Origin: Ptychodera flava
Taxonomy: Eukaryota > Hemichordata > Enteropneusta > Ptychoderidae
Direction of reading: 5' to 3'
Assembly: GCF_041260155.1 (NCBI RefSeq)
Contig: NC_091941.1
Location: 38,264,747-38,328,746, forward strand
Length of the DNA: 64,000 nucleotides
This document shows positions 4,480-50,095 of this stretch, in pieces. A program made the position numbers and the translations under genes. Position 1 is the stretch's first letter; every line of letters begins with the position of its first letter. The notes under the pieces were generated by a model that worked only from the letters and a program-made list of their open reading frames with translations, made no database searches and was not told the origin of the DNA.

Positions 4480-4899
4480 ACATAGAAGTAAAAAAAATAC
4501 CGCAATTATACGATGTCGCTCAAATTTCATCAGAATTGGTACATACCAAAGATCAACAATAAGTGTTATTTCTATCTGTTCAGTGCAGGAAAATTATACG
4601 TTGATGTTATGACAATTTCTGCACAGTACAACCAGAAAAACAACAAGAAATATTTAAACAAGAAAATTAAGAACGACAAAAGTAAATACGGTCTGAAACT
4701 TTAGGTACTGAAGGTCAACTTTAGCAACATGCATAGCAGGGAATCTTTCAACCATGGATGTACAAACATAGACATCCATGGTTTCAGCAGATCTGTTAAT
4801 ATGTCACAGTTCATCAACAGTGACAGGAAATGACCAATTAGCTGTTTCAGTGACTGCTACCACTCCGAAACATAATAGGTACCCTGCATACAAATAGGT

Positions 4900-5225
4900 T
4901 AAAGGTCAAAATCCTCTTATTCAGATGTGTGGGCTGATTCAGTTCACTGCCACCACTCCTGCACATTTGCAGGATTTCCCTTTTTCTTACCTCATTTGCA
5001 CATTTTTGACACTGACGTGTTCATTTGAACAAATTCACATCTCAACCCCTACATCTACCTGTACACCAAATACTGAGACGCTAGCTTTGGCGGTATGGGA
5101 GCCTTTGTGTGTGACGGACATACATCCTCACATACATACCCACAAATATACTGACATACAGACTCCACCGACTCATCATATAAGCTCTTTTTGGTATTTA
5201 TATATAAAACCAAATATGAGCTAAA
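4900..5225 (+). mobile_element. Pearl-like element 3' module (copy 1 of a family seen again near 44.2 kb)
   Basis: The stretch CATTTGCAGGATTT ... TTCATTTGAACAAATT ... CACCTGTACACCAAATACT-type sequence followed by a CATA/ACGG microsatellite matches 44280-44460. It ends in a hairpin at 5183-5222 (AGCTC..TTTGGT / ACCAAA..GAGCT) and CTAAAAAA. The open frame over this part is shared by both copies only because they are the same repeat family. Confidence 0.55.
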
Positions 5226-7088: not shown

Positions 7089-8707
7089 CTATGACTTGGA
7101 GTCATAAACTGGATTACCAAAGCTATGGAGGGTATTGCCATTACCAGCAATATTGTCAAGTTCACAGGCATCAGAAAACTTGAACTTGTCTTCAAAACCA
7201 TACAGTCCACCATAACTGAGGGGAGATAAAAAGGAACACAAATGATGGGATCAGTTTTTTAGGAGTTTGTTGCATAGAAAAACAAATTTGAAATGATAAC
7301 ATTTGAAGGCTGTTTAAACATTCACACTGGACACTACAAAGATGAGCACACCCCTCTCTTCATCTGCCCTAACACACAAATGTTATGAGGCTTGGGTTTC
7401 CGACCAATTTCTCTGTGCTCCCTAACCCAAGCAAAACCACTAATTCTGATATATACATATGTAAAGAAGTTATAGATTCGCATGACAATACCAAATGTCT
7501 CTCACAGGTATCATGTTACCACAACACTGACATCTACATGTGCACACCATCAAATTTGCTGCTGCATAATTCTGGTATAGGCCAAAAACTTACCTAAGTT
7601 CTATAAAATATGCAAATTAGCAGATTATTGATATGAATAAAGGGCTGAATATCATGGCCTATCATCATTTCTCTCTACAATTAATATTTGGAGAGTTACC
7701 ATTGATTTGAAATATTCCATAGCTATTTTATGGAAATGTTGATTTCTGAATTATTAAATGAAAATAAGCATCACATTTTTTAAATAGACCCATCTAGACC
7801 ACATCAGTTCTTGCCATATAGAAAAAAGAATGTAAATTCTACATTTGATTCAAATCCAATGATATCTTCATAAGGTATGATATCAACAGACAGACAATAT
7901 AAGGTACTTATGAATAAATATGAGAATCAAAAAATCTTGTTGATTGGATCTCAGGGTTGAAATTACAGACACTTCTTTATTTCAAATCTTCAGAAGACTG
8001 CACTGCACTCAATCATAACTTTCTAAAACATATGTATTGTTATGATGGTACATTGTAATTCTGATTTCATAAAGAGAACAAATAAACCAAACTACTGCAT
8101 GTTACAAAATGTTGCACAGAGTTTGATATGGACGAAGGATAAAGGTAAATTTCTCCTCGAAGTGTCCCTAAATGAAAATTTGCAAGCATTTTCCAAAAAT
8201 AAACTTACCTAGTGTCTCATCTTCTATATAAAGCACACACAGACAAATATGAATAAGTGAGTCATTTGTTTGTGTGCCCATTACAGACATTAATGAAATA
8301 CTAAAAAGCAAGTGGAATATCAGACAAAACTTTAAACACAGCGGTAAAATATTATTCACATACTGGAAAGTACCTTGAGGTTTTGCAAAACAACATAAAA
8401 AGATCTGAAGGGTTCAACATTGCTTATTATGACAAAAATCAGAAAAAATCTTTGGCATCATGATGAAAGTGAGGAGAATTTAGTTGACATCAACCTGAAC
8501 TGGAAATTATAAAGAAAAATTACAGCAATTGTGGTATATTAAAATGGGGAAGGATTCTGCATTGACAATACATATAATGATGAGACACATTAACGTGCAC
8601 TGACCTTTTATGTCTTTTCAAGTAGAGAAATCCAGCAATTGCAATCACCAAGACAACTGACACCAATACAGCGATCACAATACCAGCGATGGCACCACCA
8701 GATAAAC
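7089..8707 (-). CDS. Transmembrane and cytoplasmic-tail exons of the LTD-repeat gene (exons 17-18)
   Basis: Exon 17 (8707-8605) encodes a clean single-pass helix (GGAIAGIVIAVLVSVVLVIA, continuing to GFLYL) followed by the basic stop-transfer KRHK. Exon 18 (7215-7089), after the strong acceptor TTTATCTCCCCTCAG, encodes a 42-residue acidic tail ending GNPVYDSKS and a TAG stop. NPxY motifs in such tails bind PTB-domain or endocytic adaptors in other receptors; here that is inference. A possible optional exon at 8300-8209 (acceptor TTGCTTTTTAG, donor GTAAGT) is open in the right phase, but would put exon 18 into another frame that also stays open and gives a longer hydrophobic tail. I prefer the direct splice. 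Confidence 0.8.
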
Positions 8708-11700
8708 CTGAAAGAGAAGAGGGCATTGATAGTGGGTTACATCTAGAAGCAATCACTGCATAGGCATGCTCAGTTGTCATCCATTATCTCCTACACAGAT
8801 ACCAGAGAGTACACTTACAGCTTTTATCAAACAAGGCAGTATAATAAGCACCTCAGATATTCTGAAAGATGTGAAATAATATGCTAGCTTCTCTGTGGAA
8901 ATCAATATGGTCTACCTTCATAATACACCCTACCAATTATGTCCAACGTTTTCATCATTTGTAGTCTATTTTTGCTTCATGATAGTTCGCAACGATAGTC
9001 AACAGGCGAGGGTGTATTTGGTTTCCCTGTAGAGCGTACTGGATCAGATGGACAGATGTCAAAATTTTGCTGTTTACAAACAATTATTTACCAAAGTCCA
9101 ATTACTGTTACTCATATTTTGACCTTAGCAATATCAAAGTTACCTGTTTACTGTGGTTGAAAATGTCTGACAGTATAGGTCTTGCAACCATACTGCAGTA
9201 ACGTCTGAGTTCAAAACAAAGGCACGACAAATTTGTATTCACATAATATATCCTTACTCTTCTAAACTATGACTCTGTCAGAAGCTGCTTGTAGTAGTTG
9301 GCTGTATCAAACAGCGAAAACTCATTTTCATTTGTAACATATCAAAATTTTTTTACACAATATCAAGTTTTTGTAGAAGTATGTTGTTAGCAACACTGTA
9401 GTAATCATATACACAAATGACTGCATGGGACTTGCATCTAATATACTGTAGTGAAAAGCTGTGCTCTTCAACTTAAAATACAGTTTATTTAAATCACAAA
9501 CAACTTAGTATAGATATATGTTGCCTTATAAGTTTCAATACTTTTAATTTCCAACTAACAATATTACACTACTATATTGTACTAGCTATATCTTGCCAGC
9601 CTCAAGACCATATTTATATACTTTACCTTGTGATAACCTTTCAGGATCGGGTGCACAGTCTGAGACACACAGATTGTCTACTGTGTAGGTATTACCCAGT
9701 ATTTCCACATACTGTGTCTCAGTGATATACTTTGTGTAGTTGGTAAATAGATAGTCCAGTTGTTCATCAGACATGGCAAGCATGTTGGCCTGGTATACCA
9801 CGCTACCACAGAATATCTTGGAGTCTACAGGCAATACAAACATTTTGGAAAGCTCACATCCATTGGGAACTTGTAATCAAGTTGTGATGAAGTATTTGTG
9901 ATTTTCAACAGCACTTACAACTTTCTGTGCAATTTTTTTTTTCAGAGAAAGAAAATTCACTTTCAACAATATACAAGAAGATAGCCTTAGTTATTAAACA
10001 TCAAATGTACAGTGTAAAAATTTCATTTGATTTTGCTGACCTGATACTGGTTTACCATAATATCACTGTACAGCATGGTGGCAATGGACACTTGAAAAAT
10101 ATTGTTTAATCTGTGAAGTAGCATTCAAAGAATCTTTGTATTCTATTATGTCATGTACTAGGGTGAAATTTTTACTGTTCTTCCCTGAGATGTTTGAGAG
10201 TTTCTTAGTACATCAATATCTAAGAAAATGTGGTATTTTCAGAAGAATTCTGATGACAAAACTGTTTGAAAAGAGTCAGAAAAAGAAAACCAAAACCACG
10301 GACCAACTCTTTACCTTGTAAATAGACTGGAGTAAATCCACACTGACACCCTGCCTCAACACCATCTACAATCTCATTTATCAAAGCCTGTATATATCTG
10401 TCATCAGACATCCACACTTCACAATCAGCATCCACAAGTCTCATTTGAATGCCTTGAGAGTAGGCATGGCTGGGACAGTTGTTCTCATAACCAGGGCTAG
10501 GGTAGGACAATGCATACACAGCGGAGGTCCTTCTGTCACAGCAAGTACATCTGTTGATGGATTCGTCCTGAGTCTCATGCCATCTGTAATACAGTATGCC
10601 AGATTCAATTCAGTGTGAAACTTTAAAATGACATTGATTCTTCAATTATTTCAAAATATCATAAAAGAGCTTAATTGACATTCATATGCAATAGGGACAC
10701 ACAAGGTCATACAGATTGAGACACATTTACACTATATCTGCCGTATTGCAGTCATCATTACCCTCTATTCTCATCAACTTTTAATTTCCTTTCAATCACC
10801 AAATCACTGATATTATGATATCAATATAACAGATTGCAACTTGTTCTGTTTTCTCATCCAAATATGTACGATTCAACAGTTCAATTCAACTACTGGTACA
10901 ATTCAACCATCGAGCATCCTGCAGCTAGCTGGACAAGCTAAAATCTTGAGATGGGCCTGTGTTCTGAAACTAAATGACTATCAATTTAGTCATGAGTTAA
11001 GTGCAGTACTTTACGATCATAGCTCTGATGTTGATTTTTCTATCGTTAATGCGAATGACTTCATAATAAGTAATTTTTGCAAATCATAAAAAGTAAACCA
11101 CTGGCAATGTTTTCTTTTAAATAACATTGAAAGAACAATTATTCCTCGATTTAAAAAACCCTGAAATTAAAGTACAACCAGTAATCCTTAGAACATTCTT
11201 TATCCCTGTATGCTAGGATTGAATTTAAATAAAGCTTTAGACAAGCTTCAATGGAATCATTTTCATGCAAATTAATTATACAAGCTTTTGCTGTAACATT
11301 ACCTAGGAATTCACCTTAAATGCAACATGTAACAGTCAACACTTTTATAACTGGAAAATATTTCTGCAAGAGCTATAGTTCCAAGGATGAAGAAAATATT
11401 AATTTTTATTCCTGCACCTTGACAATGGTGTTAAATTCTAGGTGTTTCACATTTACCGGTATATTGACTTCACTCCTCTGTCAAAAATTTCAAGTTATTT
11501 TAAAATGCTGGTCACTTGCATTTCTGACCAATGAGTGAAAATAAAGACAAACACTCCAAGGTATTTGTTGCATGTGTTGTAGCCATGGAAACCTTTGTGT
11601 CACTCAGCAAAAATAAGAATATTACGGAAAATCATCAGAATCTTCACCTACTTGTCATTTTCCACAAATATATCACTGTTTGGAGTCAAGACATCAAGGA

Positions 11701-14700
11701 GTGCCTGGCTTGTTTTGCTTTCATCATTGGTATAAACCAGAGCATCTATTAAGTTTTTGTTGGTGACAGGAGTGCCATTAGGAAAATCTGTCATGCTGGC
11801 TTTGTAGACAGCCACTGCATCGGCTCCATTCTGGATAATTCCAGAGTCCTGATCCGGTAATGTGACTTGTGGGGGAGGATTCAAACTGACTGAGCCAATC
11901 ACAAGGAAACCCTGGCTATTTAACTTTTGTCCTTCCAATCCAATGGTGTAGTAAGAAGTTGGTGGATTCAGGTTACCGTTATACAAGACCACGACCATTT
12001 CACTGAGATCAAGTCCTGCTGGTCCGTACAGCTCTATGAACTCACTGATGTCGTAGCTGGGATTGTCAGGGTTGACTTCATTGATGACTGCTTCAGGTAC
12101 AGTTGGAGGAACTGTGGTGATAGTAGTCACAGGAGGTGGTGGTGTGTACACACCTTCAGTACAGTTATTTGACTCTCTGGGAGACGGAACACCAAGTCCA
12201 AATAGAGAAGCCTTCAGTGGTTCACAACAGATGCAGCGGCTTATACTCTCATCACCTTCCATGAAGTCACCATTCTCATCAACCTGATGTTGCCCAGGCA
12301 ACAGGGCATCCACAAGAGAGGTATCCGTATTGTCAGTTGTTCCATAGACAAGTGCGTCCATAAGGTTTTCCTGGGTTGGTAGAGTACCATCAGGGAAGTT
12401 TCTGGGATCATCCCGGTACAAAGCTATGGCATCTGCACCATTCTGAAGGAAACCATTGTCAGCACTGACTATAATGTCCACATAGTCAGATACTCCTTCA
12501 GAACCAATGATAAAATACCCATCACTGAAAATTGACAAAATTGAGAATTACTTTGGATCTCCAACAAAAAACTATCTTTTGAGTATGAAACATGGCATTT
12601 TCTCGGAAGTACTTGATTGGGTGTTCATCAAATTAAGAATCAAAAAACTTTCAAAACTTTTAGTGACTACTGTAGAGTTGCATTGGCTTACACAGTAATC
12701 TTTCTAGTTCTGTGTCTGTGGAGCCCTGTTGTGTCTTAATGCAGCCATGACTGTTATCAAGCAATATGATTTACTAGTCATTTACTGAAAGTTCAAATTT
12801 TCTTTGACATCAACAACATTACATGGAAATTAGTACAAAATTGTCTATCAATTGGCAGAATTAATAGAAAATCTTCTAAACTTATTTATTTTGACAATTC
12901 TTACAACGCAATAGATTCTTGTTAACACGTGAAAATGACCATGACTTCACTGTCTAATGAACTTACCTGTCTGTTCTGTAGTTCTGCAATGGAATGGTGC
13001 TGTAGGATTTATCATTGTCCTGTCCATTGAATAGTACTATAATTAGTGAATCAAGGGATGTATAGCCTCTGCCACCATCATATAACTCTATGAATTCTTT
13101 CTCATCAACACCAGGTTGGTCAACATTCAACTCATTGATCACAATAGCAGATAAAGTACAGTTGTTGGCCATTCCTGTGAAATGAAAAATCAAACCCAAC
13201 TGGCAGCAAGTTGCTAATTTTCCACTGTATTTGAGCATTGAATGCGAAGCTCAAGACTTTTGAAGTTTCATGCCCGCCACTGTTATCTCACTTGTTGTAA
13301 CCAGCAGACAATGAACAGCTTACAGATGGAGTTCTACAGGTGCAGCGCCCTCAATATAAAATAACTGTTGACTTTGTTTTTTTACACTCAACCAAAACCT
13401 ATCCAGGATGAATGGTCAAGATTACACACAAGTCTTTCAAGGAAGATTTATTTGAAGACTAAATTTACCAAGTAACACTTATTGTTTATGATCTAGTGTT
13501 CATCATCATAATTCACTTTTAACTCCATCAGAGTTTATTTCAATTTCCAACACTATCGGGCGCACTCACTTCATAAGAGGGTGGCACTGTAACCATTGAC
13601 TAGCTAGTTGTGACTTTACAACATGTGTTACATAAGTAAAGAAGCCATACCACTATCATTGTGAACTGCTCACACACAAAAACCAACATGTTTGTTAACA
13701 GTGTTCAGTTCTTACCTGGGGTGGGTTGAGACACTATGTATGCAAATAAATTCACCACATCATTTGAAAGACACCTTGACAGTGATTCATCTGTACTGAG
13801 ATGACCATCATTCTCGTTCACTTGGATCTGTCCTGGTGTCAGGATTGCTATAAGACTGTCATCCTGATCATCATTGGTTCCATAGATGATACAATCCACC
13901 ATGTTATCACTGGTTGCCATGGTACCACGGGGGAAGTCAGCAATGTTGGCATTGTATAAGACTGCAGCATCAGGACCATTCTGCAGAAAGTTGAAGTCAA
14001 CTACAACATCTGGAGACACATTGTCACTACCAATGACAAAGAAACCATCACTATTTGTCCTGCAAATAAAGAAATGTTGAGTGTATGGTACATTTTAATT
14101 GATTTGAACTGTAAGCGATGCATTTCCGAGATAACAGACACCGATAGCTTGGGTCAATATTGATTAGTAGATTATTTAATGACTGCATTTAAAGGTATGG
14201 AACAATTCAAGGTGACTATTATTAATTTACTAGTACATAGATGGACTTTGATACACTACTACTAAGCTGGACTGCCTTGTTTACTGACAATATGTCATAA
14301 TCTATAAAGATTAACACATGCTCTGTTGTAAATGTCTGTGGCAACACTTGGCAACACATTACGAGTGACCTGGCCACTCTAATTTTTAACTTCAATACAA
14401 TTTCCAAGGTAGACATTGTATGATTTCATAGTTCTGCGCACCGACTGTTTGAATTTCACTCATGTGTATTAATTATTCATCCATCTTGACTATAAGTGTT
14501 GAGCAACATTATGCATGGCATTTACAATGCACCCTCCCGAAGAGTATGATCTTCCCATCCTAGATCCATTTTAACGACGTTCCTATAATCTTCCTAACTG
14601 TAACCAGTGAGATTGATTTCAAAGTACAGTATACTCACCTGTAACCAGTGAGATTAATTTCAAAGTACCGTACACTCACCTGTAACCAGTGAGATCCATT

Positions 14701-17700
14701 TCATAGTATGATTTATCATCATCAGCACCATTGAAGAACACCAGTATGAGACCATCTAATGGTGTATTACCAACGCCTTTGTCATACAACTCAATGAATT
14801 CATGAGTGTCAGTTTCTGGACTGTCAGCATTCATTTCATTGATTATTATGTCTGCAGAGAAAATTCATATATTTCATATGTTTTGTCATTTCAGAAAACA
14901 TTCCAGTCACTGCAAAGTTTGACATATCTCATAAAAACTTTTTTAGTGTTATTCTGAACAGACATTAACTGTTTGTCCTTCCATTGTAGTATAAATTTTG
15001 TCCAGATATTTGGATTTTAAACTAGGCACAGCACTGTATTCCTTTGAGTGCTGTAATTATTCCCAACAAAATTTTAGTGTAACATTTTATTAATTTTTAT
15101 GAATTTTTATGTAATTCTTTTGATAATTTTGGACTAAATGGACATAACTATTCAATAGCTACAGTTTTTGATCAAAATTTTTGGGAAAATATGAAAAAAT
15201 AATTGGCTGGATCTGAAAAAAAAATTGGAAGGGTTTATATTTTATAAAAGTGACAAAATTGACTTTAGCACTCAAAGGGTTAATCACTCTACACAGACAT
15301 GAAAGACACAAGTAAAATATTGACTAACGAACAAAACAGAAAGAGCACAGCTTGTCTGATAATTTCTTCAAACAACACACACTACTTTAAACAGCTTACC
15401 TTCGGCCTTAGGAGGGGGACTTGGACAAGAGTTATTGGATTTTGGAGTTGGAGATGCTAACTTATAGCTTGATGTATCAAATCGCATGTTGCCATTGCAA
15501 CGGCTAATACTTTGATCATTTCCAGAAAGATCTGTGGTATCTTTGACCTGTCTTCCTCCTGTTGATGAACAATGAATGTATTTACTAAGATCACAATTAA
15601 GCCAGTTCACTGAAAATTCATTACGCAGCAGGAATACACATGAAACTCAGGCATCTACATTAATTTTCTACTTCCAAAACCTACAGTTGACCAGTACTGA
15701 ATGAGTGATAGCAGATGCGTAGACAGACACATCAATGTTTAACTTGTAACAGCAACAATTACCGGTGACTTTCTGGGATTGTCTAATTTGTCAGGACTGT
15801 TTCAATGAAACAAGGAATTTATTTACAATTATTGTAAACTTTTTTTTTTATGATAAAGGCTTAAAGATCCTAGTAGAATTCTTTTCCATCAATCATAAAC
15901 AAATGTAATTGAAGATTACAAGTACTAACTTATTAACATTTCTGTTAAGTTTCATAGGAATTCACAGGAGTGTCTGTGCACTTACTCTGAACTACTGGTG
16001 ATGATAGTAATGTTGGGTGTGATAGTGTTTATATAGGATGATATGACCATCTCTTTTTGACACATATAGTTCAACGGACTTTTGACACTACCTAACACAC
16101 ATATCATGAACGTTACAAGATATATTAATCGATGCAAGAAATTTAACAATGTACATTTTGTAAAATGAGCCAAATTATATTTAAAGGAGAAAGCAAATTG
16201 TGCATTGGTCTTAATAAACCAAACAACAGACCTGGTGTAAGTGTGTTCAGTAAAACTTGATCCACATTGTCGTTGTTACTATAGACTATAGCATCTAATA
16301 AGCTGACATCAGTGACTGGTGTACTGTACGGAAACGCTGTGGCCGGAGCACGATGGATGGCTATGGCATCTGGTCCATCCTGTAGGAAACCACCACTTCC
16401 TGAGTCAAGTACAATATCTGCAGCTGTGAGAGAGATTAAATTCCAGGTTAAAGTAGGTACTGTGATAAGCCTTGTGTCAGGTCGGTGATTATATAACAGA
16501 GGAAAGACAGGTGTTGGGGTTAAGAAGGGAGAATATACCTCAATACTAACACGTAAAATACACAATTTCTAAGACGAAACCAGTTTTCTCCCTGATGCTG
16601 CTAATGACAAGTGGATACTGCAAGGCTGCTGCTGCTGGACTTTAGGGTGAATTGAACCAAGCTACAATCAACCTACAGATATTAGTGCTTGAACTTAGAC
16701 TAAGTCCCCCACAAGGGAGCAGTAAAGCATACAAACTTTAAGTAACCAGAAAGTACAAGACTCAGGTAAAAGACAAAAAATAAATGTGAGTAAAGTTTCA
16801 TAGCAGGGTGGGAAAGTGTAGGTGGCAGCAAGGACTTGCTCTTGCTACGGTGACAGGACATGAATGACCTCTGATTGAGGCTGGTTGAAATTTTGAAGCT
16901 GATGCTCTTACCTGGCAGTACATTAGCAGATCCAATGACAAGATAACCATCAGCATTGGTAGTGAAGCCATCAAGGTCAACAGCAATGTACGAACTGTCA
17001 AAGCCATCACCATTGTACATTACAAGAGTGATGTAAGACAACAATGTATTGCCTCTACCTCCATCATACAACTCTACAAATTCCATGTCATCATCTCCGT
17101 CCTGATCTGGATTGATTTCATTGATGATGATGTCACTATCATACACTGGACACTTATTGAGAGATCCAGGAGTCAGAACACCTGCCACGTATGCATTAGA
17201 ATCAAGTCTATTACTGGACAGACATCTACTGATGGTATTGCTTCCTGTCTGTACATCATCAGAATTCACCTGTTGGTATAGCGTCAGAAAGTCTAATTAC
17301 AGAGGAACAAAAACATTTTATAACTTTTCAATTGATTGTAAATTCTCTTCCTTCTGTACCTAATAAGGATGAAGGTCTTTCAAGTTATTAATTTTTGGTG
17401 ATGTTTCTGCAGATAATTATTTAAAGGACCAGTAGCAGTAACTTTTGATGATTTTTTTCACTATTTTTGGTTTGTATTTCAATCACAAGTTCTTGTTCCA
17501 TCCCAAAAGCATGTTGAAATTCCTACCATTTAGCCTATCAGCACAGCATCTATAAATATAGAATGAACTGTTATTGTACATATTGTAATTCTAATCTGTG
17601 CCATGTCTTTGAAAAACATTATTAGGCGCCAAGTTTACCCCTGATTTTACATTTTTAGATGAGTATCAAGTTGATATGAAACAGTATTGAATGTTAAGAA

Positions 17701-20700
17701 TATTATAAAGTTGGGCATTCTGAATGTTAATGAAAGTTCAATAACTTTTGACAACCTTGAGGATTGAAAGACTGTACCGGTACATGGTGGTCACTTGAGA
17801 GATATACCAGTAGCACAATATTTTCTGAATTTACTCACCTGTTTAGCACCTTGGGAACCGAGCAATTCTTCAGCCAGACTATCAGCAGAGTTTCCTTGTT
17901 GACTGTACACCACTGCATCTACAATGTTTTCTGCTGTCGCTGATGTATCATTGGGGAATTGTAATGCGGCGGCTTTGTACACAGCAACACCACCATTCAC
18001 CATGGGTAGGAAATCTGAAGATAATGACAAAATAAAATGAGGTTAATTTGTACGAAAATACTGCAAAGGATGCACAAAGACAGAAGTGCAGTACATCAGT
18101 ATAATGCCCATAACAAAGTGGAGGGACATGTGCGGCACAAAAAGTGTCAAATTTAAATACTGAGCATTGAAATTGAGCATTGATGTATTTATGATGATGA
18201 CATTGGCTCATTGATTTCAGGAGATGTTGACACAGAAGGGAGAAGACCATCATACATAATCAAGAAGTTGAAATTGTATCAATTTATGCTTATCTGGGTT
18301 CTATTTTTGATGATAAATTAAAATGGGATTATAACACTGATGCCATGGTGAAAAAGGGTCAGCAGCGCTTATACTTTCTCAGAAAACTGGATTCATTATA
18401 GTTGATAGAAATATTTTATCCCTATTTTATAAAACATTCATTGAAAATGTTTTAACTTTTCCTTTATTTGTTGAATGCATAATTTGTCTGTTAAAAATAA
18501 AAACTCATTAGATAAGATCGTTTCAATATGCTCCAACATAAAATCGGTACTCCTGAGAGAAATTTCTCTGTTTTTATAACCAGCAGGTGCTCCGGAAGGC
18601 TCACTCTATAATATCATGTACAACCAACGTTTTATCTTCAGAGTTTGTTGTACTTCCTTCCGGTCAGCGTTTTCAGTCCCCGGCTTGCATGTCAAATCGG
18701 CGCAAACATTGTTTTATTCCAACCGCAGTGCGGCTTTTAAATGAAAAGAAATGATGTCAAGCTTTTTGTCCAGTGTCTGTCTGTTGTTTGTTTTTATTTA
18801 TTTCTCTTTTGTAGATTTCTTGTTCGTGTGTGTAAGTTTTCTCAGTCACCATTTCAGTTGCCCAGAGTTTGGGATGAATAAAGTATTGATTGATTGATTG
18901 ATTTTGTCACTTTTTTTATTGAAACAAACTCAAAAAGCTAGTTTCTGGAGCTCTCTCTCCTCATGTTGCTTGGTCAGAAGCATCTTGCATAATGAATGTT
19001 GCCGCCATCTTTCTCTTTTTTATCTCCCACCCACCCCTTTAAGTCCTTCACCAGGGTGTTGGAAAGTCTTGTTACATTTGGAGCTTATCTCACCTTGATC
19101 TACTGCCATTCCAGGCTGAACACTGCTGTCTGATCCTATCACAAAGTATCCTTGCTGATTGGTTGTGTAACCAGTCAAATCAAAGGTAATGATTGACAGA
19201 TCATTATCATTGTAGACCACAATAATATAGCCGTCTGGAAAATTGGTAATAAATCAGTATTTTTAGTCAGACACATATATGTATTTTCACTAATCCTTAC
19301 AACTTTGCTCTGATACATTTATCATCTTTTGTGGTAGACTAAAATGTTCATATGAAGCTATTATATACATGGTTCTATGATCAAATATAACTTCAATAAT
19401 TTGACAGACATGTCAATACCAAACCTCAATTTACCATTATACTGCTTGTTGTTTACTCCCAAATATATCAGTAATTTGCACATTTACAGAGTAGTATTCT
19501 CACAGTGATAATTATCAGAGAATTAGGGTTTCAAAAAACCTGACAATCTTGGAAGAAGTCAGGTTGAATTATCTACACTTGAAATCCTTAAACAAAGCCT
19601 CATTGGTACATCAGCTAGACAAACAACAATTAATCACTGTTCATATTACAGAATATTTCTAAATCCCGAGGTAGAGCAGCATGAGTCCTCCTTGATTTTC
19701 ACTTTGGGCACATAACAACAGGTTGAAATCCAATGGGAGACACTTCATAGGGTTGTACCGGTATGTGTGCATTTAGAGCCACAAAACAGGGGTGAGCAAA
19801 TCCTACAGTCAAAGTTTATCAGCTAGTATTTTACAGTAAGGCCAGCAGTGTTTTGCTTGTACAAGCTGTGGTGGCTTATTGAATTTCAGCTGGCGACTGT
19901 GAGCTAGTCATTTTCCAAGGGATCTGAAAATGATTTGATTATCCCTTATGAAATATTCTTACATTTACTAATACAGTTGATAAACATATGTGTATGCACC
20001 TACCAAGAAGGGCCTCTCCATATCCATTGTCCCAAACTTCTATCAAATTTTTATTTTGAACCAATCCAACTTCATTGATGCTGAGTGTAATGTTACCACT
20101 CAGTGGACAGATGTTCTTTATCTTAGGTGACAGATGGGACACCACGATACTGACTTCATCATCAACACTGCAGCGATTAATGGATTCATCACCATCATGA
20201 AATCGATCATCTTCAATGACTTGTTGCCCGTCTGGTGTCAATATATCAACCAATGACTGTGCAGGTGGGTCATTCTCTGTGGTATAAACAATCGCATCGA
20301 TCAAACTCTCATTTGTAGCAAATACGCCATTTGGAAAATCAGACACACTTCCGAGGTATACGGCCACAGCATCTGGACCATTCTGTATGAATCCATCGGC
20401 TGGTGCATTTATGATCAGATCTGGGATGACTGACACTTGATTTGAGCCAATCAGGAAGAGGCCATTGTTATCTGTGCGATGACCGTCAATTCCAATTGAA
20501 TAGTACGACAGGTCAGTTTTGCCGTTGTACAACACCTAATGAAACAAAAAAAATATTGCATCTGAAGATTCAATAATATTGTATGGTATTAGGTGTATTG
20601 AGCATTTATAATTGACAAATTGTCATCTAATCAACAACCAGGATAGCACTGTGAAAAGAGAAAGCTAGGAACAAAATTGACTGAGTACATTCCATACCAT

Positions 20701-23700
20701 ACAAACAGTTCTAGTTTCTGTATTTGCAGCAGGAAATATATCATTTGTAAAAACTTCATTGTAATAATAAAGTCAAACCTACTTTACATGTGCTTTCACC
20801 CGGTAACAATAGACTTCAAATATTGATAACATGGTCACAAAATTATATCCAATGAAAAGTTTCCTATTGCTTGAAGTAAACCCACAAAATTTGTGATTGA
20901 CAAAGATGATATAGATGCAATATTCAGTTTGATTTAACTTACCACTACGAGATTATTGAGAGGAAAACCAGTCCTGTCAAGACTTTGTATCTCAATATAT
21001 TCAGCTTTATCTGATCCAGCCTGGTCTACGTTGATTTCACTGATCACAAGTGGTGGTAATGGACATGAGTTGATGACACCAGGTGATGGGTGTCCCGGTG
21101 TAAATGCCATCAAGTCAATGGCATTATTGGAATAACATCTTATAATGGACTCATCACCTATCCAAGGAATAAAATACATTTCATGAGTCCAAATAGTTAC
21201 TTTGTTGATGACATTTCTTTTGAATGTCATTCGAAAGTACGAACCACATGTAAAATAACTATTCTAATTGTGACAATGTATCAATTGACTAGTGATACAC
21301 ATTCACCGTTCGGTTCAAAATGGCTACTCCATCAAAGGTGAGAATATCTCACTCACTTTCATTCATTTAATTTCCGGATAAAAACAGTCAAAACAGATCA
21401 CGGACTAACCATTCATTTCAATTTTTATTTCACAATAACCTTATTCAGTTAAGCATATCGAATGTAAATCAACAATAAACTGAATTCAATGATACAGGTA
21501 CTAATGCAGAAGTCAAATTCAATATAGAGTATACCTGGCTGATGATCCCAATCTTCATTAATTTGATCCTGTCCTGGTGATAGGACATCTAACAATTCTT
21601 GATCTCTTTTATCATTTGTTCCATACACAATGGCATCAATTAAACCAATGTCAGTCACATAGGTACCTCTTGGAAAGTCAGATGACTTGCCCTGCATATC
21701 AAGGAAACAAATGACGTAAAACAAAAACATAAACAAAACACTTTCAGACCTACACTTTCCACACTACACACGACTTAATACCTTTACGAAGTGCACTTGA
21801 CATAGCTTTTATGCTGCCCATCTGTGTATGTTAAGCATTTGTATGTACCAGTACATTGTAACTAGCAACTGACCTTGTCCATTTTTTTCAAAGAGAAAAC
21901 TTTCTGCTGACAGTGAACATCAACACAAAGTTGACAGATTGAAATGTCTTTCAAAATACTTTACAATTGAAATAGGTAGAGTATGGCATTTATGAATACT
22001 TAATTAATACAAATTCTTCATTTCGAAAAATCACCCTGGAAGGTTCAGTGCTTTTGGTTTTTGAGGAAGATCACTTTCATTATATATAGTATTGGGAAAA
22101 ATTCAAAGTAGCTATGCATGAAATGATTGCAAGTAGCTCTACCAACTCTATGAACAAAAATGCTCTCAATAAATTTTCAGGCACACTATTTGACAAAGTC
22201 AATACATTATGGTGATACCTTGTGCAAGGCCACTGCATCAGGACCATTTTGAATCCAAGACTGTTCACTGACCACCACATCTGGTGTTGGAGTAATCATT
22301 GATGACCCTAATGTGAACAAACCATTCTCATTGGTCTGGTAGCCCGACAAATCAATTGTCTTGTACGATCTGTACCAGGAAGACAGTTACAAGATCTATG
22401 ATTGGCTATGATGACAGTGATAGATACTTGTTTGCTTCATAACATTTGTTGAGATCAGAATTCATAGAGAAAGATGTTCTTGATTGACAGAAAGATGCAT
22501 AATTCATGCTCTTACAGTGATGAGAGACTAGTAACATGCAAACAATTGAAGTCTCCATATTTTGTCAATTCTTGTATGTTTTAAAAAGACCATAAAAATC
22601 TGTGCATAAAAGAGCATATCCACTGTTAACATTAATTATGTTAAGCATATTAAAAAGTTATCATTTTACAATAAAGGTCACAGGCTTTTTTGACAATAAC
22701 TTGTAAGAGATCTGTTCAACTTTTACCTGTCATCTCCTCCACTGTAAAGAACCAATACAATGCCATCTAATGAAACAGACTTGTATGGACTTCCAATCTC
22801 TATGAATTCATGCATATCATCCCCTTCTTGGTCAGCGTTGACTTCATAGATTCTCAGCAAATCTTGCAGCACAGGCAAGGTTTCAGTCACAGTTTCATTG
22901 TTACGTGTACAACTAACACTGAGTGCACGGGGAGTGACTGGAGCTAAGCCATAAACAGATGAATTCAGCGCTTGGCAGCATTCGCATCTACTGATGCTGT
23001 GGTCTTCGGGTTTGAAGTTACTGTTCTCATTCACTTGATGTTGTCCAGGTAGAAGTGCGTCCAACAATTCCAAATCTGGGTTGTCATTGGTGCCATACAC
23101 AACTGCATCAATGAGATTTAAATCTGTCACTGGTGTGCTTGTAGGGAATTGCTGGGGTGGGGCCAGATGTAGAGCCACCGCATCAGGACCATTCTGGATA
23201 AATCCCTGTGGATTATAAGGAACCTTGATTTCAGGGTCAAGTTCACTGTCTACATCTGCCGCAATGATCAGGTAACCATCTGCATCAGTACTGTATCCAG
23301 TACAATCTATAGTAAGGTATGACACATCACCATTTCCATTGTAGAAAACAACCAAGACACCATCCAGGCTTTGATAACCTATGCCACCATCAAAAAGTTC
23401 AATGAACTCATAATTGTGGACTGACTGACCAGAAAAAGCTACATTGACTTCGTTAATCCTGACGGCTGGTAGAGTGCAATTGTTGTCACTACGCGGAGTG
23501 GCAGATGTTTGAAGGAATGAAGAAATCTGCACTGGATGCCATCCTCTGCAGCGACTGAAGGATCCCTCCTCTTGTGAGATTGTTTCATCTTCAACAAGCA
23601 CATCTTGACCTGTTGTGAGTGTTGTGGTGAGAGGGTGGTTGTCGAAATTTCCATCCACTGATGAATAGACCAAGGCATCAACAAGGTCTTTGTTTGTCAC

Positions 23701-25899
23701 TGATGTGCCCGGTGCAACATTGGAAGCTGGTGTGTAATACAAAGCTATGGCATTGATTCCATCCTTCTTGATGAGATCAGGCAAGACTAAGATGTCAGGG
23801 GTCCACTCTGACTGGCTGGTACCAATACCAAAATAGCCATTTTCACTGGTTTTGTAACCATTCAGATCGTAATGCAAGTAGACAGTACTTGTTACCCCAT
23901 CATACAGAGCTATGACCAACCCATCTAGAATGGTATCACCAACTCCACCATCATAGAGTTCAATAAACTGAGCCGATGCATCCACATCAAATTCATTGAT
24001 GACTATGTTGGGTTGCAGTGTTGGATCAAGAGTTGGAAGAGCTGGGCTTGGCGAAGACAGGGTGAGATTACAGACATTGGTGGCACCTGGCGTTGGCACT
24101 GTGAGAGCAAACTGTGACAACTTCAAAGGATCTGTACCAGTGCAGCGACTCAGGCTTTCATCTTCAGCAAGATGGGCACTATCTTCATGGAGAGTATCTT
24201 CACCAGGTGTTAGCACATCTGTCAGTGTGTCATCATGTTGACCACCGTTGTCATAAACTATAGCATCGATCAATCCAGTGTTGGTGACACTCATACCAAT
24301 GGTGTAGCTTGCAGGATTGCCATAGTACAAGGCAACAGCATCTTCGCCGTTTTGAATTGATATGCTGCCATCAAGAATTAGGTCTGGAGTTGGGATAATA
24401 TTGCTTGATCCTACAACAAAGTGGCCTCTTGCTGGAATGGTTTGATCATTTGGTAATGCTATCACAGCATAGGCTGTGTCACTGCTGCCTGTGTAGAAAA
24501 CAAGAACATAATTCTGCAGCTGCACTTGATAATTTTCGGTGTTGAATAGTTCAACAAATTCTTGGTCATCAGTTCCAGGGTTATCGGCATTGAGTTCGTT
24601 GATTACAATAGGCGATGTCACAGGTATTGATGGAGTTGTTGACTGGGAAATACTGGTTTGTTGTGATGACGTAGTAGATATCACTGCTGTAGGGTATGGA
24701 AAACTGCAGTTGTTGTCTGAGCCAGGTGTTATTGGACCTAGCCAGTACTGAGAAAGAATTCTTGGATCTGTACCAGTGCATCGACCAAGAGACTCATCAG
24801 GAAAATCATAAAAATAATCATCTTCATGCAGTGTCAGTTCTCCTGGAGTTAAAATGTTTGTAAGGCTGTCAGAATGGTCTCCATTGTTGTCATAAACTAT
24901 GGCATCTACCAAGTTATCTGTCGTCACTGTCATACCAACTGTGTACAGTGATGGACTACCATAGTACAAAGCAACAGCATCAACTCCATTTTGTAAGATG
25001 TGTTCATCACCTGGTAATAGTCTGTCTGGCATTGGATCAACCAATGCTGATCCAATAACATAATAGCCATTGGCACCAATACTTCCATTCAATGCTATCA
25101 CCATGTAAGCTCTATTGGCATCATTTCCATTGTAGAATACTAAAACATAGTTGTCAAGATTGACTATGGAGTCTGCTGTGTTGTAGAGTTCAATGAATTC
25201 TGCCTGATCTGTTCCTGGGTTGTCAGCATTCAATTCATTCAAGATCACTGTTTTGGGAACGCAGTTGTTGCTACTTCCTGGTGTGTGAGGAGTCAGCAGG
25301 AATTGTGACAGCGTCAATGGATCTGTTCCGGCACATCGACTCAAAGACTCATCCACATCATCTCCACCGGAATCTTCATGTAGAGTCCTTTGTCCTGGAG
25401 TCAGGACATCTATCAGTTTGCTGTCGTCATGGTCACCACCTTTGTCATAAACAATAGCATCCACAAGACTGTCATTGGTCACACTCATACCAATGCTAAA
25501 CTTAGAAGTGTCACCATAATACAGAGCTACAGCATCAATGCCATTTTGTATTATGTTTGTATCCCCTAGAAGAACATCTGGTGTTGGAACAACATTGGAT
25601 GAACCAATCAAATAGAAGCCCTTGGCAGCTATACTTGAACTGCTACTAAACGTGATGACATCATAGGCAGTTTCTCCGTTTCCATTGTAGAGAACCACAA
25701 CATAGTTTTCTAATGAGACGGTTTGGTCAGCTGTGTTGAAGAGTTCAATGTACTCCTTGGCATCAGTGCTGGGATTGTCAGCATTCAGTTCATTAAGAAG
25801 TACACTTGCATGACTGGTGAGAGGTCCTAGCAATGTAAGTCCAAAGATCACCAAAGTTACCATCTCTGAAACTTTTGGAAACTTGTTTGTGAGTCCCAT
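7089..25899 (-). CDS. Giant LTD-repeat type I membrane protein (18 coding exons, ~2515 aa)
   Basis: Coding exons (minus strand, 5' to 3'): 25899-22727, 22369-22219, 21691-21535, 21157-20943, 20535-20004, 19234-19094, 18014-17839, 17269-16912, 16423-16232, 15558-15400, 14851-14680, 14059-13716, 13174-12967, 12524-11652, 10583-10315, 9824-9627, 8707-8605, 7215-7089. Every junction is GT-AG and every phase matches, giving 7548 nt with one terminal TAG. The start is the ATG at 25899, just after a good acceptor (exon edge 25905), so a 5' UTR exon probably lies upstream; an in-frame ATG at 25935 lies inside that putative intron. The product has a signal peptide (about residues 1-31), twelve repeats with the lamin-tail-domain signature (INEhNxDxPGxDxxEFIELY, then GYFxIGS, then IQNGxDAVALY, then LxDAxVY), each ending in a DESxSRC...TPGxxNxC tail, then a ~150-residue membrane-proximal region, a transmembrane helix and a 42-residue tail. 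LTDs are known in nuclear lamins and in secreted bacterial proteins; a role in adhesion or extracellular binding is inference. The exon model is firm; the function is unknown. Confidence 0.9.
9627..10583 (-). CDS. Membrane-proximal exons of the LTD-repeat gene (exons 15-16)
   Basis: Exon 15 (10583-10315) closes LTD repeat 12 with the QDESINRC tail and a CTCC cluster, then moves into a different kind of sequence. Exon 16 (9824-9627) continues it to the edge of the transmembrane segment. This part of about 150 residues has motifs such as LVDADCEVW, INEIVDGVEAGCQCGF, SKIFCGSVVYQANMLAMS and NTYTVDNLCVSDC, at least six cysteines and an NYT glycosylation site. It does not resemble an LTD, and I do not recognise its family. 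Its place just outside the membrane suggests a small disulphide-bonded stalk or SEA-like module, but that is only a guess. Confidence 0.8.
14598..14720 (-). repeat. 41-bp tandem triplication over the splice donor of LTD exon 11
   Basis: CTGTAACCAGTGAGAT begins at 14598, 14639 and 14680. The copy at 14680 forms the end of exon 11; the other two lie in the intron. The middle copy keeps a perfect donor (CAG|GTGAGT) and the outer one has decayed (GTTAGG). Using the middle donor would add 41 nt and shift the frame. Confidence 0.75.
17425..17610. mobile_element. Partial copy of the TTAA-flanked foldback family
   Basis: After TTAA (17421-17424), AGGACCAGTAGCAGTAACTT, then TTCACTATTTTTGGTTTG, CAAAAGCATGTTGAAAT and GAACTGTTATTGTACAT, as in the left half of the 26.5-kb element. 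The right arm is not evident. Intron 7 of the LTD-repeat gene. Confidence 0.5.
18240..18908 (+). mobile_element. 5'-truncated LINE (CR1/L2/Rex-like) 3' end
   Basis: Plus-strand remnant of the end of a reverse transcriptase ORF: pieces read as EVEIVSIYAYLGSIFDDKLK and KKGQQRLYFLRKLDS, and, after frame breaks, LLPSGQRFQSPACMSNRRKH and AVRLLNEK. This is the usual tail of CR1/L2/Rex-type LINEs. It ends in GGATGAATAAAG and a short (ATTG)n tail near 18880-18900, typical for those clades. It is broken by several stops and frameshifts and lies in intron 6 of the LTD-repeat gene, antisense to it. Confidence 0.7.
22727..25899 (-). CDS. First coding exon of the LTD-repeat gene: signal peptide plus LTD repeats 1-5 and the start of 6
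   Basis: A 3173-nt exon without introns. After the signal peptide (hydrophobic core MVTLVIFGLTLLG, likely cut after SHA near residue 31) come LTD repeats at about residues 32-213, 216-399, 431-610, 631-807 and 812-996; repeat 6 begins near 1014 and runs into exons 2-4. Repeats 1-3 are close copies sharing NELNADNPxTD, DAVALYYG and TDPxxLSQ, which points to recent internal duplication. A Ser/Thr/Pro linker (about 400-430) separates repeats 2 and 3, and another lies near 612-630. Repeats 4 and 5 are more diverged; repeat 5 carries an extra CxCC cluster after SISR. The exon ends in phase 2 (AG|GTAAAA). Confidence 0.9.
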
Positions 25900-36548: not shown

Positions 36549-36645
<97 letters not shown>

Positions 36646-36841
36646 TACAGTATTATATTATTACATATTACAGTTGTCGCGTGCAGGGGGGAGGTCACCC
36701 TGTTTTCAAAATTTGGAATAGGGGGGGTCACCCTGTTTTCAAAATTTGGAATGGGGGAGGGGGGGTCAGCCACTTTTTGACGTCGGCAAAAAATAATCCA
36801 CCGGCCCCCCCCCCCCCCGGCCGAAGAAACTGACCAGTCCC
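35564..36841 (+). mobile_element. 1.3-kb G-rich DNA transposon (copy 1)
   Basis: Ends GGGACTTGTCAGTTTCTTCG and complement GGGACTGGTCAGTTTCTTCG, both next to long G runs; TAA flanks on both sides (35561-35563 and 36842-36844). GGGGGGGTCACCCTG-type repeats lie at both ends and an (AT)n tract near 36555-36650. Matches 49816-51258 in the opposite orientation. No transposase frame; Harbinger-like by flank only. Confidence 0.7.
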
Positions 36842-42121: not shown

Positions 42122-45100
42122 TGTATGTATGTATGTATGTATGTATGTGTGTATGTATCACACGATTGGAACTAATTTGGGATAATTGGATGGTGAAGTA
42201 ATGAACTAATTTGGGATAATTGGATGGTGAAGTAATGAACTAATTTGGGATAATTGGATGGTGAAGTGATGTCGATTTAATCCTTTTTATATTACACACT
42301 TGTTTTTATGAGTTATTTGCAATATTGTAACATTCAGCTATATGGCACCCAATGTATGGCACCTAACACTTTTGAGAGATTTGCAAAATATGAAAATCCA
42401 ATTATCCCAAATTAGTTCCAATCGTGTTGTATGTATGTATGTATGTATGTATGTATGTATGTATGTATGTATGTATGTGTATGTGTGTGTGTGTGTGTGT
42501 ACATGTAAATGCACATGTCTACGCAAAGGAGACTTGAAGAGCTCTCATAGAGATATCCACATACAGCCTATAAAGCCACAGATTTTGAGTGTGAAAACTA
42601 CCAATATGTTAGCTGACTTACAATGACATACACGTGTCGTGATCGACTTCTTTCCGGACTTCAAACCTGTCATAGACACAGTCGCTACCACCACTTTCTA
42701 CGTAGAAAGAGTCGAATCGCAGAGATATTCGCGTACCAACTGGTGCCTGCAGAGGACAGAACGTCACCTGTCAGTTTACTTGAGTAAAAGGGTGACTTGT
42801 TTAAGTATCAACAGGGATTCTTTACATGATTCAAATGATTGTAACATGATCAAAAATAGTGACAATGTCACTGTTCGCTCCCATATAGTTATCAAAACAA
42901 GCCAACAATTGTATGAAACATGGACATATACATACAGACAGACTGACACACACACAGACTAGCACAGAGTGATGACATTGGCCCCTAAGTGTGCATTGGC
43001 CAATGGAGAGTGATAAAAAAATAACAAACAACTGAATGTAATGATAAAATAGTTAAGTATAAGCCTGCAGGCACTGAGGGTGAATATGTTACAGCAATTT
43101 GATTAGTTTCTTTTCCTTATCTACTTCTGTGATAATTTTTAAGACAATCAATCTGCAAGGCAGTTTATGTATTGACAAATATGTTATCTTTTAAAAGCAC
43201 ACTGCAAACTGTTCTTGATTTTTCATTTTGTGGGAGCTAAAAACTTTACCAAAACACAAAATTTTAAATATTTGTCTGAAAATTTAAAATAAGTAACCTA
43301 GCAGTTGATAGAGCTTGGTTTACGTTATGTAGAGAATAACTTTTTGTGACGCATGTGTTGATCGAGGAGGAATCTTTGCAAGTCAACTTAACGTCGGCCT
43401 GACAAAAATAGCAAAAATAGCTGCAAAAATACCTATGGTAATTAAAGATTTTACCATAATTTGAGCATATTTAATTAAAATCATCTGTAAGAACTGTCTA
43501 CTAAACATCAAAGCTATCAGGCAAGTGGTTTTTGAGAAACAAATTTTTGACCAAAATGGCAAAAATTGCCCCCAAAATTTAAAATTCCAGATTTCAACCT
43601 AATTTCAATATATCATATTAATATAAACCCTAGAAACCTGTTTCCTAAATAAATATCAAAGCAATCAGACTGGTAAATTTTGAGAAACAAATTTTTTGAT
43701 CAAAAAAAGAGAAGAATTGCCCCCAAAAATACAAAATTGCAGATTTCATCCTAATTTCAATATATCTTATGAAAATAAACCCCAGGAACCTGTACACCAA
43801 ATATCAAAGCTACCAGATCAGTAGTTTTAGGAGAACATTTTTTTTACCCCCCAAAAAGGGGCAAAAATTGTCCAAAAATAAAAAAAAATTGCCAGTTTCA
43901 ACCTAACTTAAATACATTATATCGAGATAAATCTTAGATACCTGTATACCAAATATCAAAGCTATCAGATCAGCAGTTTTTGGATAAAAAAATTTTTGAC
44001 CAAAAATTGGGAAAATTGCCCCAAAATTACAAATATGATAATATTAATACAATATGTACAAACTTGACTGAGGTCATCCCGAGGAACATGAATACCAACT
44101 TTCAAAGTGATCAGATGAGCAATTTCAGAGAACAAGATTTGTTGGCTAAAAACTGAAAAAAACACCTTCAAAATACAAACATGCAAATTTCACCCCAATT
44201 TGTGCACACATAATTTAGAATACCTAAAGGAATCTGCATACTACGTTTCAACCCAATCTAACCAATGCCTACTGAGTTTTAGCCATTTGCAGGATTTTTC
44301 CTTTCTTCCCCTCATTTACATATTTTTGGCACTGACATGTTCATTTGAACAAATTTACATCTCCACCCCTAGTTGCACCTGTACACCAAATACTAAGGCG
44401 GCAGCCGTTGCGGTTTAGGAGTTTTTGATCTAGACGGACTAACAGGCATTGATACATACATACACACAGACGCCATTTTGGCACCTTATAAGAATACCTT
44501 CCATTTGCATATATACATATGCATGTATGGGAGCTAAAAATGAAAATATGGGTTCACAGTATTATCTCATATCTACTGATATTAAAAGTTCACGATTGAA
44601 ACAAATCTCTGTTTTAATTCTACGTTGAAATTAAACTTCGGTGTCACACAATTCGAAAAACTGTAAGGTTTATTTCCTCAACCGGTTTCATGAGTCAACA
44701 CAACATAAACCAGAAGTGCAGCATTATGTCACATTGAGAGACCGACATTGAAGAGGTATGGATGGGAAGTCCACCAGAAACAATAGTTTGTCTTTGATTG
44801 AAGAATTCAATACATATATTAACTGTTTACTACTCTTGATTTGATTCCCTGGAGAAATTCCAGCACAGCTTAATTTACACTTTTCCTAATGAATGATAAG
44901 ATATATAACATTTACCTCTAACAGCCAATGACATTCCTGATCGTCTCCATAGTTACCAGGGTAGTTGGGTGACGTCACTGTACCTGTCGACGTCGCCGTT
45001 ATCTTGCCACCACACACTATTAAACGAAAAAAGAAGAAGAAGCAGGAAACATATCTTCAGGAAAACAAATCCAGTTCGGTTGAATATCTAACCTTGTGTA

Positions 45101-45971
45101 CCAAAGTCAATCTCGGCGCAAATTTCAAAGATCAGATTGCTATTTTTGTGCATCGCGATCCAACAGTTAGGTAGACAGTGTGCTTTGCAATTGTGTACGT
45201 TCCCTCCGTCGTTTCAGAAATAGTATTGACGGAGATATCAATTCTTTCTGCTGTGACGTCACAAGTCAAGATATTTGTTGGTTTATTTTTGCTCTATCAT
45301 GTTGAATATCAAATTTCTTTGGTGATGTGGGTCTTACATGCTGGGAGATGGCCAACCCCACAATACACAGGTATGCTTGGAATATTGCAATCTGATTAAA
45401 ATCAGATGTAGAGTACGGCGACGTCTCTGTACTTGGTACTTACTCTACATCTGATTTTAATCAGATTGGGAATATTGCAAAAAGAGAGCGGGAGGGCCTC
45501 CACTTCTCCCTGACATGTTGATATGTAGAAGAAGTATCTGCGTGTCTCATATTACAACTCATAATACGCTTCATTTTATACTTTGTGAATGGCACTGACC
45601 TGATTGGTTCACCAAGTCGTCACACGTGGCACCTGTGAAGCCACTGGGACAGACGCATGTGCATTTCTTACCGACATAACCACCGTTGGAACAGACAAGA
45701 CCGCTTTCACAATGTTCTAAAATATGCAAAAACGTCGAAGTTGGCGTCAGTATCATTTTGAAAATAATATTCATAAAGTAACATCAAGGTCAAGTTATAA
45801 TAAGTTGTGATATCTAGCGTTAACTCTCCTGCTGGCATATTCGACTTTGCATCACGACCACCGATCCTAGTTTCACAAACAAACAGACAAACAAACAAAC
45901 AATCTAACACAGAGAAAAATAATTGTCTTGATAAATAAATGTCTCGACAAATAAACGAGTAAGCAAATATA

Positions 45972-46019
<48 letters not shown>

Positions 46020-46037
46020 CACAAGTAAGCAAATATA

Positions 46038-46097
<60 letters not shown>

Positions 46098-49000: not shown

Positions 49001-50009
49001 GTCATACAGCTCTAGGATTTTATGAAAGTCATTTGCGTCTTGTAAATGTGTATATTTCGATCATGCAAGTAGACAGTTTTTTTTCCACTGTTGATAAACA
49101 GTAGCTGCGCCGAAAGGTTAAATTAACCGACATCATTTTGCTATGAACGCTAGAAGTGACGACAGGTAGCCCAGTGTTTTCTCTGCATGTTCACTGAAGG
49201 GGGCAATTTCTGCTCTCTTCATTAAAATTAGGGGACAGATTTGACATTTAAGGGGGCAGAAACAATAGCAAATTCACAGGTCACTACACTATGCACTTTG
49301 GTCACAATCATAATCATATCCTGCATATCGGCGTCTTTGCTTGCTGTGTTTTGAGCGCGATTTTCGCGCTGTCAGTAACCTTTAAAGGGCGGAATGCGCA
49401 ATTTGCGCAATTGCGCAGTCGAAAGAAAACCTTGGTAGCCTATATGTGAATCTTTGTATCAAGTACTCAATATTCAGTATCTATGACTTCATTCGGTAAA
49501 TGTTGACCGAGAATGGAACTGAAAAACCTATACGTAAGGGTTTGGATAAACGGACAAGGTTTGACTTACTGATTGACAGGCAACCTTCTGCAGCGACACT
49601 TGACGTGTTTTGTTCTTGTATCCCATGTACGCATAACATCTGCAAAAATGACAGTTAGGTACCATAGGTACATAACACATGATCAATAGTATCCCATGTT
49701 TTTGACTTTTTCCCTCAATATCCTACAAATGCATTGCTCATGTTTCTATTCAACAAACGAAATATTGCATAAGGCCACTATATTTTTCGGATTCAAACGA
49801 TTTCCGATGATGTAAGGGACTGGTCAGTTTCTTCGGCCGGGGGGGGGGGGCGCGGTGGATTTTTTTTGCCGACGTCAAAAAGTGGCTGACCCCCCTATTC
49901 CAAATTTTGAAAACAGGGTGACCCCCCTATTCCAAATTTCTAAAACAGGGTGACCCCCCCGGGCGCGACAAAGGTAAAACAAAAGATGGACATAAATTAT
50001 ATATATATA

Positions 50010-50095
<86 letters not shown>

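Follow-up and report, generated by a model that had tools for sequence, protein, structure and literature searches.

What kind of animal protein is built from an array of lamin tail domains (LTDs) behind a predicted signal peptide, and where did the array come from? The question is raised by a gene on the minus strand of a 64,000-nucleotide stretch of the Ptychodera flava genome (RefSeq assembly GCF_041260155.1, contig NC_091941.1), hereafter the window, by which we mean the whole stretch analysed. In the literature found, animal LTDs are discussed almost exclusively as domains of nuclear lamins. The gene model was drawn from stop-to-stop open frames and the minus-strand sequence, and scripted joining of eighteen exons, from an ATG at 25899 to a stop at 7089, kept the frame and gave a product of 2530 residues. 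A preliminary description of this DNA had proposed the same eighteen in-frame exons; the coordinates matched, with GT at 17/17 donors and AG at 17/17 acceptors. The product begins with a hydrophobic stretch and continues with twelve repeats of about 180 residues and a juxtamembrane region rich in Cys, after which a single predicted transmembrane helix leads into a short tail. A signal peptide is predicted from the hydrophobic N-terminus only, and a second in-frame ATG at residue 13 is an alternative possible start. Our best reading of the sequence, to which we assign a probability of roughly one half, is that the product would be a surface receptor, endocytic or adhesive, made of bacterial-type LTD modules.

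Twelve repeats of the LTD family

The repeats occupy residues 32–213, 218–398, 431–610, 633–808, 813–997 and 1016–1192 (repeats 1–6) and 1198–1375, 1383–1555, 1562–1743, 1753–1929, 1935–2114 and 2138–2320 (repeats 7–12). They are 173–185 residues long, share 25–63% pairwise identity and are all strongly acidic (each with a net charge between −14 and −25); three linkers rich in Ser, Thr and Pro lie at residues 399–430, 611–632 and 2115–2137. The product was scanned against Pfam-A in six pieces, and PF00932 (LTD) was the top family in four of them, with ten matched stretches in total at E ≤ 10. The curated cut-off of 34.3 bits was passed by the pieces holding repeats 1–5 (143.4 bits) and repeats 10–11 (38.8 bits), and those with repeats 6–7 (29.1 bits) and 8–9 (30.5 bits) fell below it. 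The exon-14 piece, comprising half of repeat 11 and most of repeat 12, matched no Pfam-A family, the C-terminal piece gave no LTD match, and no enzymatic or lectin domain was recognised in any of the six pieces. Together with the bacterial-only profile described below, which matches 12/12 repeats, the scan bears out the twelve LTD-family repeats of the preliminary description, and the landmarks it had named (INE, EFIELY, QNGxDAVALY and DAxVY) are conserved columns in the repeat alignment. The ratio of nonsynonymous to synonymous substitution (dN/dS) was 0.20–0.50 in five of the seven repeat pairs tested, namely those with finite dS, which is itself near saturation. No further LTD copies were found in the window, where the best match outside the gene had an E value of 1.8.

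Relatedness to exported bacterial modules

Bacterial relatives were sought with a profile of the animal repeats, which yielded at least 584 pattern matches and at least 409 relatives, of which the best 80 were kept. The search pattern demands QNGxDAVALY-like letters, so that this motif is present in the bacterial set by construction. From 81 bacterial open frames, 185 domain matches were obtained; 155 of these (more than 160 profile positions, more than 90 bits) were used and 30 dropped. In the spliced protein, a profile built solely from the 155 bacterial domains recognised twelve domains and no more, at 115.6–204.2 bits and with E values, for a database size of 1, from 1.1e-37 down to 7.5e-65; it gave no match in 200 shuffles of that protein. 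Its local matches cross all 13 splice junctions located inside repeats, although repeat 7 is matched only up to profile position 157 of 189, beyond its junction. Applied to the raw six-frame translation of the window, the same profile marked 20 stretches with E values below 1e-3, every one of them on the minus strand between 25950 and 11651. This test of the splice model is not wholly independent, as the bacterial domains were chosen with the animal profile; nevertheless, the choice of splice sites had no influence on the bacterial letters.

Scores against the animal profile range from 95 to 195 bits for the 155 bacterial modules, and the weakest animal repeat reaches 187. Most conserved columns are common to both groups, including INE, EF(I/V)EL, QNGxDA, DAxVY, a Glu, SxxR and P...N. 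Mean identity is 39.5% among the animal repeats and 38.7% between animal and bacterial modules, i.e., the repeats are as close to the bacterial copies as to each other; between bacterial loci it is 55.0%, in a set that is partly redundant and consists of best matches. Beyond sequence, the exported bacterial modules have in common with the repeats a length of about 180 residues and a tandem arrangement with short linkers. Arrays of them occur in Bacteroidota, Acidobacteriota, Chloroflexota and others, and an LTD forms the N-terminal part of the ExeM nuclease. Tandem LTD repeats in bacteria are also noted in the available part of PMC6085458. Among the bacterial relatives, at most five closely spaced modules were seen in a row, and the animal protein differs from all of these in its twelve modules, its transmembrane helix and FxNPxY tail, and its 17 introns. 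Eight proteins from the 81 open frames were scanned for other domains: four carry a C-terminal sorting or anchor domain above cut-off (Por_Secre_tail or IPTL-CTERM). An LTD was present in 5/14 well-known control genomes, which makes the domain common in prokaryotes. A viral source was rejected, since a scan of viral contigs gave six pattern matches and no relatives.

As a separate observation, two of the bacterial proteins, L045 and L007 (Sulfidibacter corallicola and Acanthopleuribacter pedis), each hold five tandem modules of the same LTD kind; in L045 they are accompanied by an Exo_endo_phos_3 domain and by a partial match to ExeM/NucH, which scores 128.9 bits against a cut-off of 300.

The preliminary description had likened the repeats to nuclear lamins, and this comparison appears misleading, because the repeats match the exported bacterial module over about 180 residues, including its Cys-bearing extension, whereas PDB searches gave no lamin. 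Run without a positive control for lamins, these comprised a sequence search with one repeat (one unrelated match, E 0.82), a profile search with the twelve repeats (no matches) and a profile search with repeats plus bacterial domains (eight unrelated matches, E ≥ 0.61). The Filament domain PF00038 was likewise absent from all six pieces at E ≤ 10. The nuclear lamin tail falls in the same Pfam family, whose broader model groups both, and that common name is what speaks for a lamin- or intermediate-filament-derived protein that acquired a signal peptide. Unlike nuclear lamins, the animal protein is predicted to be exported, and it has a Cys pair, a longer module and no Filament domain. Given also the identity to exported bacterial modules, which reaches 52% for repeat 10 and one bacterial copy, and the PDB results (no lamin at E ≤ 10), we disfavour a lamin origin as very improbable. 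The repeats thus appear to resemble exported bacterial LTD modules far more than the nuclear-lamin domain of the same name.

A cysteine pair in the C-terminal extension

Two cysteines flank a C-terminal extension in 12/12 animal repeats, and this extension lies beyond the 109-position Pfam LTD model. In the joint animal–bacterial alignment the count is 11/12, as the second Cys of one repeat falls off-column. Among the 155 bacterial domains, 40 have both cysteines, one has a single one and 114 have neither (the second being sought within two columns), and 23 of 80 bacterial loci hold at least one copy with both. These bacterial counts are not independent of descent, and we place no weight on the Fisher's p of 2e-36 for the pair, which relatedness inflates. 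The all-or-none distribution in bacteria is nevertheless what a disulfide predicts, and a coupled pair would fit an oxidising, extracellular location. A further pattern, CxCC, was observed in repeats 5, 11 and 12 (residues 972–975, 2090–2093 and 2296–2299), where the other repeats have one cysteine; the two extra cysteines in each make additional disulfides possible.

Introns and origin of the array

Thirteen introns lie inside repeats, all of them in repeats 6–12, repeats 1–5 being contained in a single exon; only one intron falls between modules. Among the 13, no pair coincides in both alignment column and phase, against 0.11 pairs expected by chance, and one pair in the same phase within three columns was seen, in repeats 10 and 11 (0.84 expected); these counts are in line with random insertion. 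Exon-shuffled animal modular proteins usually have phase-matched introns at module borders. The lack of common intron positions and the five repeats in one exon suggest, on the simplest reading, that the array was built first and acquired its introns afterwards.

The twelve repeats form one clade relative to the bacterial domains, with a FastTree support of 0.999 for the full set of 155 and IQ-TREE supports of SH-aLRT 96 and UFBoot 97 for the twelve repeats plus 26 of the 155. This monophyly indicates that a single ancestral module was expanded into the array within this lineage, and most of the present introns would have come later. The two trees disagree on the sister group (L036 plus L064 in FastTree, two modules of L002 in IQ-TREE), and we therefore name no donor; the trees have no outgroup and thus give no direction of transfer. 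We consider possible, at somewhat less than even odds, a history in which a bacterial LTD module reached an animal or holozoan ancestor by horizontal transfer, was amplified to twelve copies while intronless, and was joined to a stalk, a helix and an FxNPxY tail, so that it would now serve in an endocytic or adhesive receptor without lamin ancestry. Arrays of up to five modules joined by equally short linkers exist in bacteria, which fits such a transfer and does not prove it. A unicellular holozoan provides a possible parallel: according to the available part of PMC4739763, secreted CotH proteins of the ichthyosporean Creolimax carry an N-terminal LTD, and the family is described there as laterally acquired. 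These proteins differ in that their LTD is joined to a CotH domain, and no array or receptor tail is described in that part of the source.

Several points weigh against this history. The intron pair in repeats 10 and 11 could be one intron that slid, and intron loss in exon 1 is possible and would equally yield intronless repeats. In addition, the animal–bacterium identity (38.7%) is lower than that between bacterial loci (55.0%), which argues against a recent transfer. The strong similarity to bacterial domains could also be taken as a sign of bacterial contamination or of a model artefact. This explanation is disfavoured and hardly credible in view of the 17 canonical introns, the difference in GC content between exons (0.43) and introns (0.33), and the animal-type gene on the same stretch, whose astacin, EGF-like and CUB exons at about 44.9–48.9 kb support an animal source.

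Membrane topology and proposed function

The single-pass topology and NPVY tail of the preliminary description were recovered: hydropathy predicts one helix (Kyte–Doolittle maximum 3.24, 19 residues from 2464), followed by a cytoplasmic tail of 46 residues that ends FGNPVYDSKS, with FGNPVY at residues 2521–2526. The product shares with FxNPxY endocytic receptors this motif in the tail of a predicted type I membrane protein. The LDL receptor has the form FDNPVY, and NPxY motifs are also used by adhesion receptors. As in LDL-receptor-type endocytic receptors, type I topology is combined with a short FxNPxY tail; in contrast to them, no LDLa, EGF or beta-propeller modules were found in the six Pfam-A pieces. 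In the available part of PMC2882754, FXNPXY is listed among the three motifs that are known to suffice for clathrin uptake, and such signals are stated to bind the PTB domains of Dab1, Dab2, ARH and Numb. The best Pfam match of the C-terminal piece was PARM, over the transmembrane stretch (24.1 bits against a cut-off of 35). The juxtamembrane region gave no convincing Pfam domain and no PDB match better than E 0.33; a SEA-like pattern was noticed there as an impression only.

By sequence, the product has twelve modules of exported bacterial type in tandem, followed by the Cys-rich juxtamembrane region, the predicted helix and the FxNPxY tail, and it is thus a predicted type I single-pass membrane protein. 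We hypothesize that each module folds into an Ig-like beta sandwich, with a disulfide clamping its extension, and that the acidic ectodomain would form a rod some tens of nanometres long that could catch a soluble or particulate ligand. The FGNPVY tail would then recruit PTB-domain adaptors of the Dab2, ARH or Numb kind for clathrin uptake. Two considerations count against this proposal: FxNPxY is short and NPxY serves adhesion receptors, so uptake is not proved by the motif, and the protein may be shed by cleavage in the juxtamembrane region.

The same features bear on an adhesion or matrix-linking rod, whose ectodomain would bind cells to one another or to matrix and whose NPVY tail would recruit PTB proteins with little endocytosis. 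Integrin beta tails recruit PTB proteins. The long uniform array with its three Ser/Thr/Pro-rich linkers and the lack of a recognised enzymatic or lectin domain agree with such a rod, whereas the tail has only 46 residues and its sole clear motif starts with Phe, as in the endocytic FxNPxY class; we regard this alternative as possible but unlikely. A microbe- or DNA-sensing receptor, in which the modules would keep a bacterial LTD binding activity, e.g., for extracellular DNA or surface polymers, appears improbable. In its favour, Exo_endo_phos nuclease domains accompany the LTD in 3/8 scanned bacterial proteins (L029, L045 and L076), and exon 1 scores 61.3 bits against the N-terminal part of the ExeM model, far below the whole-protein cut-off of 1300. 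The available parts of the sources add that ExeM requires its LTD for full in vitro activity (PMC6085458) and that LTDs of halophile DNases are proposed to bind DNA (PMC4486849). However, the strong acidity of every repeat (−14 to −25) is unfavourable for DNA binding, and in a strain test the ExeM LTD was dispensable for extracellular DNA degradation (PMC6085458, available part). Together, the tail motif, the acidic array, the three Ser/Thr/Pro-rich linkers and the Cys-rich stalk lead us to prefer an endocytic or adhesive receptor with a long rod.

Relation to known LTD proteins

The LTD module itself, bacterial tandem arrays and eukaryotic non-lamin LTD proteins are already known; what appears to be new is the twelve-module transmembrane FxNPxY architecture. 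No such receptor was found in the LTD literature, mostly non-subscription, among the matches listed, in line with the preliminary remark, whose author could not name the architecture. The available part of PMC5630835 notes LTD-like non-lamin proteins in several eukaryotes and raises a prokaryotic origin of the lamin LTD merely as a possibility. In a Perna shell paper, PF00932 is accompanied by a Filament domain in 3/3 mentions; in octopus mucus, LTD and IF-rod counts are both 9; and a flatworm protein with an LTD combines Filament and LTD. All three look like intermediate-filament proteins. A Pinctada paper names only a transcript annotated as lamin tail domain-containing protein 1.

If our reading is true, a second, non-lamin kind of LTD exists in animals and the protein represents a new class of animal surface protein. 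Its intron positions could then serve as a marker for the spread of the non-lamin animal LTD, and the receptor would offer an expressible system for finding ligands of the widespread, functionally unexplained bacterial LTD modules.

Features of the gene and its surroundings

Table 1. Exons of the predicted LTD-repeat gene in the window.
Feature	Coordinates	Strand	Basis
Exon 1 (3173 bp): ATG, hydrophobic N-terminus, repeats 1–5 whole, start of repeat 6	22727..25899	-	splice model; Pfam LTD 143.4 bits, 5 stretches
Exon 2: middle of repeat 6	22219..22369	-	splice model, bacterial-domain profile
Exon 3: third quarter of repeat 6	21535..21691	-	splice model, bacterial-domain profile
Exon 4: end of repeat 6 (Cys pair), start of repeat 7	20943..21157	-	splice model, bacterial-domain profile
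Exon 5: most of repeat 7, start of repeat 8	20004..20535	-	splice model, bacterial-domain profile
Exon 6: repeat 8	19094..19234	-	splice model, bacterial-domain profile
Exon 7: repeat 8 (lowest score among repeats)	17839..18014	-	splice model, repeat profile, bacterial-domain profile
Exon 8: end of repeat 8, start of repeat 9	16912..17269	-	splice model, bacterial-domain profile
Exon 9: repeat 9	16232..16423	-	splice model, bacterial-domain profile
Exon 10: end of repeat 9; donor opens the sole between-repeats intron	15400..15558	-	splice model, intron mapping
Exon 11: start of repeat 10	14680..14851	-	splice model, bacterial-domain profile
Exon 12: repeat 10 (closest repeat to bacterial domains, ≤52% identity)	13716..14059	-	splice model, bacterial-domain profile
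Exon 13: last residues of repeat 10, start of repeat 11	12967..13174	-	splice model, bacterial-domain profile
Exon 14 (873 bp): end of repeat 11, Thr/Pro-rich linker, most of repeat 12	11652..12524	-	splice model, bacterial-domain profile
Exon 15: end of repeat 12 (CxCC...C), first half of Cys-rich juxtamembrane region	10315..10583	-	splice model, bacterial-domain profile
Exon 16: second half of Cys-rich juxtamembrane region; flanking introns both phase 1	9627..9869	-	splice model, intron mapping
Exon 17: predicted transmembrane helix (residues about 2456–2484), basic KRHK	8605..8707	-	hydropathy
Exon 18: predicted cytoplasmic tail and stop; FGNPVY at 7121–7104	7089..7215	-	splice model; FXNPXY class in PMC2882754 (available part)

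Elsewhere in the window, minus-strand exons at 44889–48941 encode astacin (76 bits), CUB (31.5 bits) and EGF_2 (21.1 bits, cut-off 22.1) domains, a layout that recalls tolloid/blastula-protease-like enzymes. A unit like GGGGGGGTCACCCTGTTTTC... stands beside a long TA run at 36549–36757 and again, in the opposite orientation, at 49887–50094, and is perhaps a mobile element. Similar open frames occur in pairs, on the plus strand at 42627–42962 and 62882–63214 (shared-sequence example FFPDFKSVVDTV) and at 4898–5224 and 44119–44418 (example TCSFEQIHISTP); they are more likely interspersed repeats than genes. Tandem arrays resembling satellites, with unit lengths of about 146–172 bp, were observed at 1–837, 43503–44026, 47362–48125 and 55951–56553.

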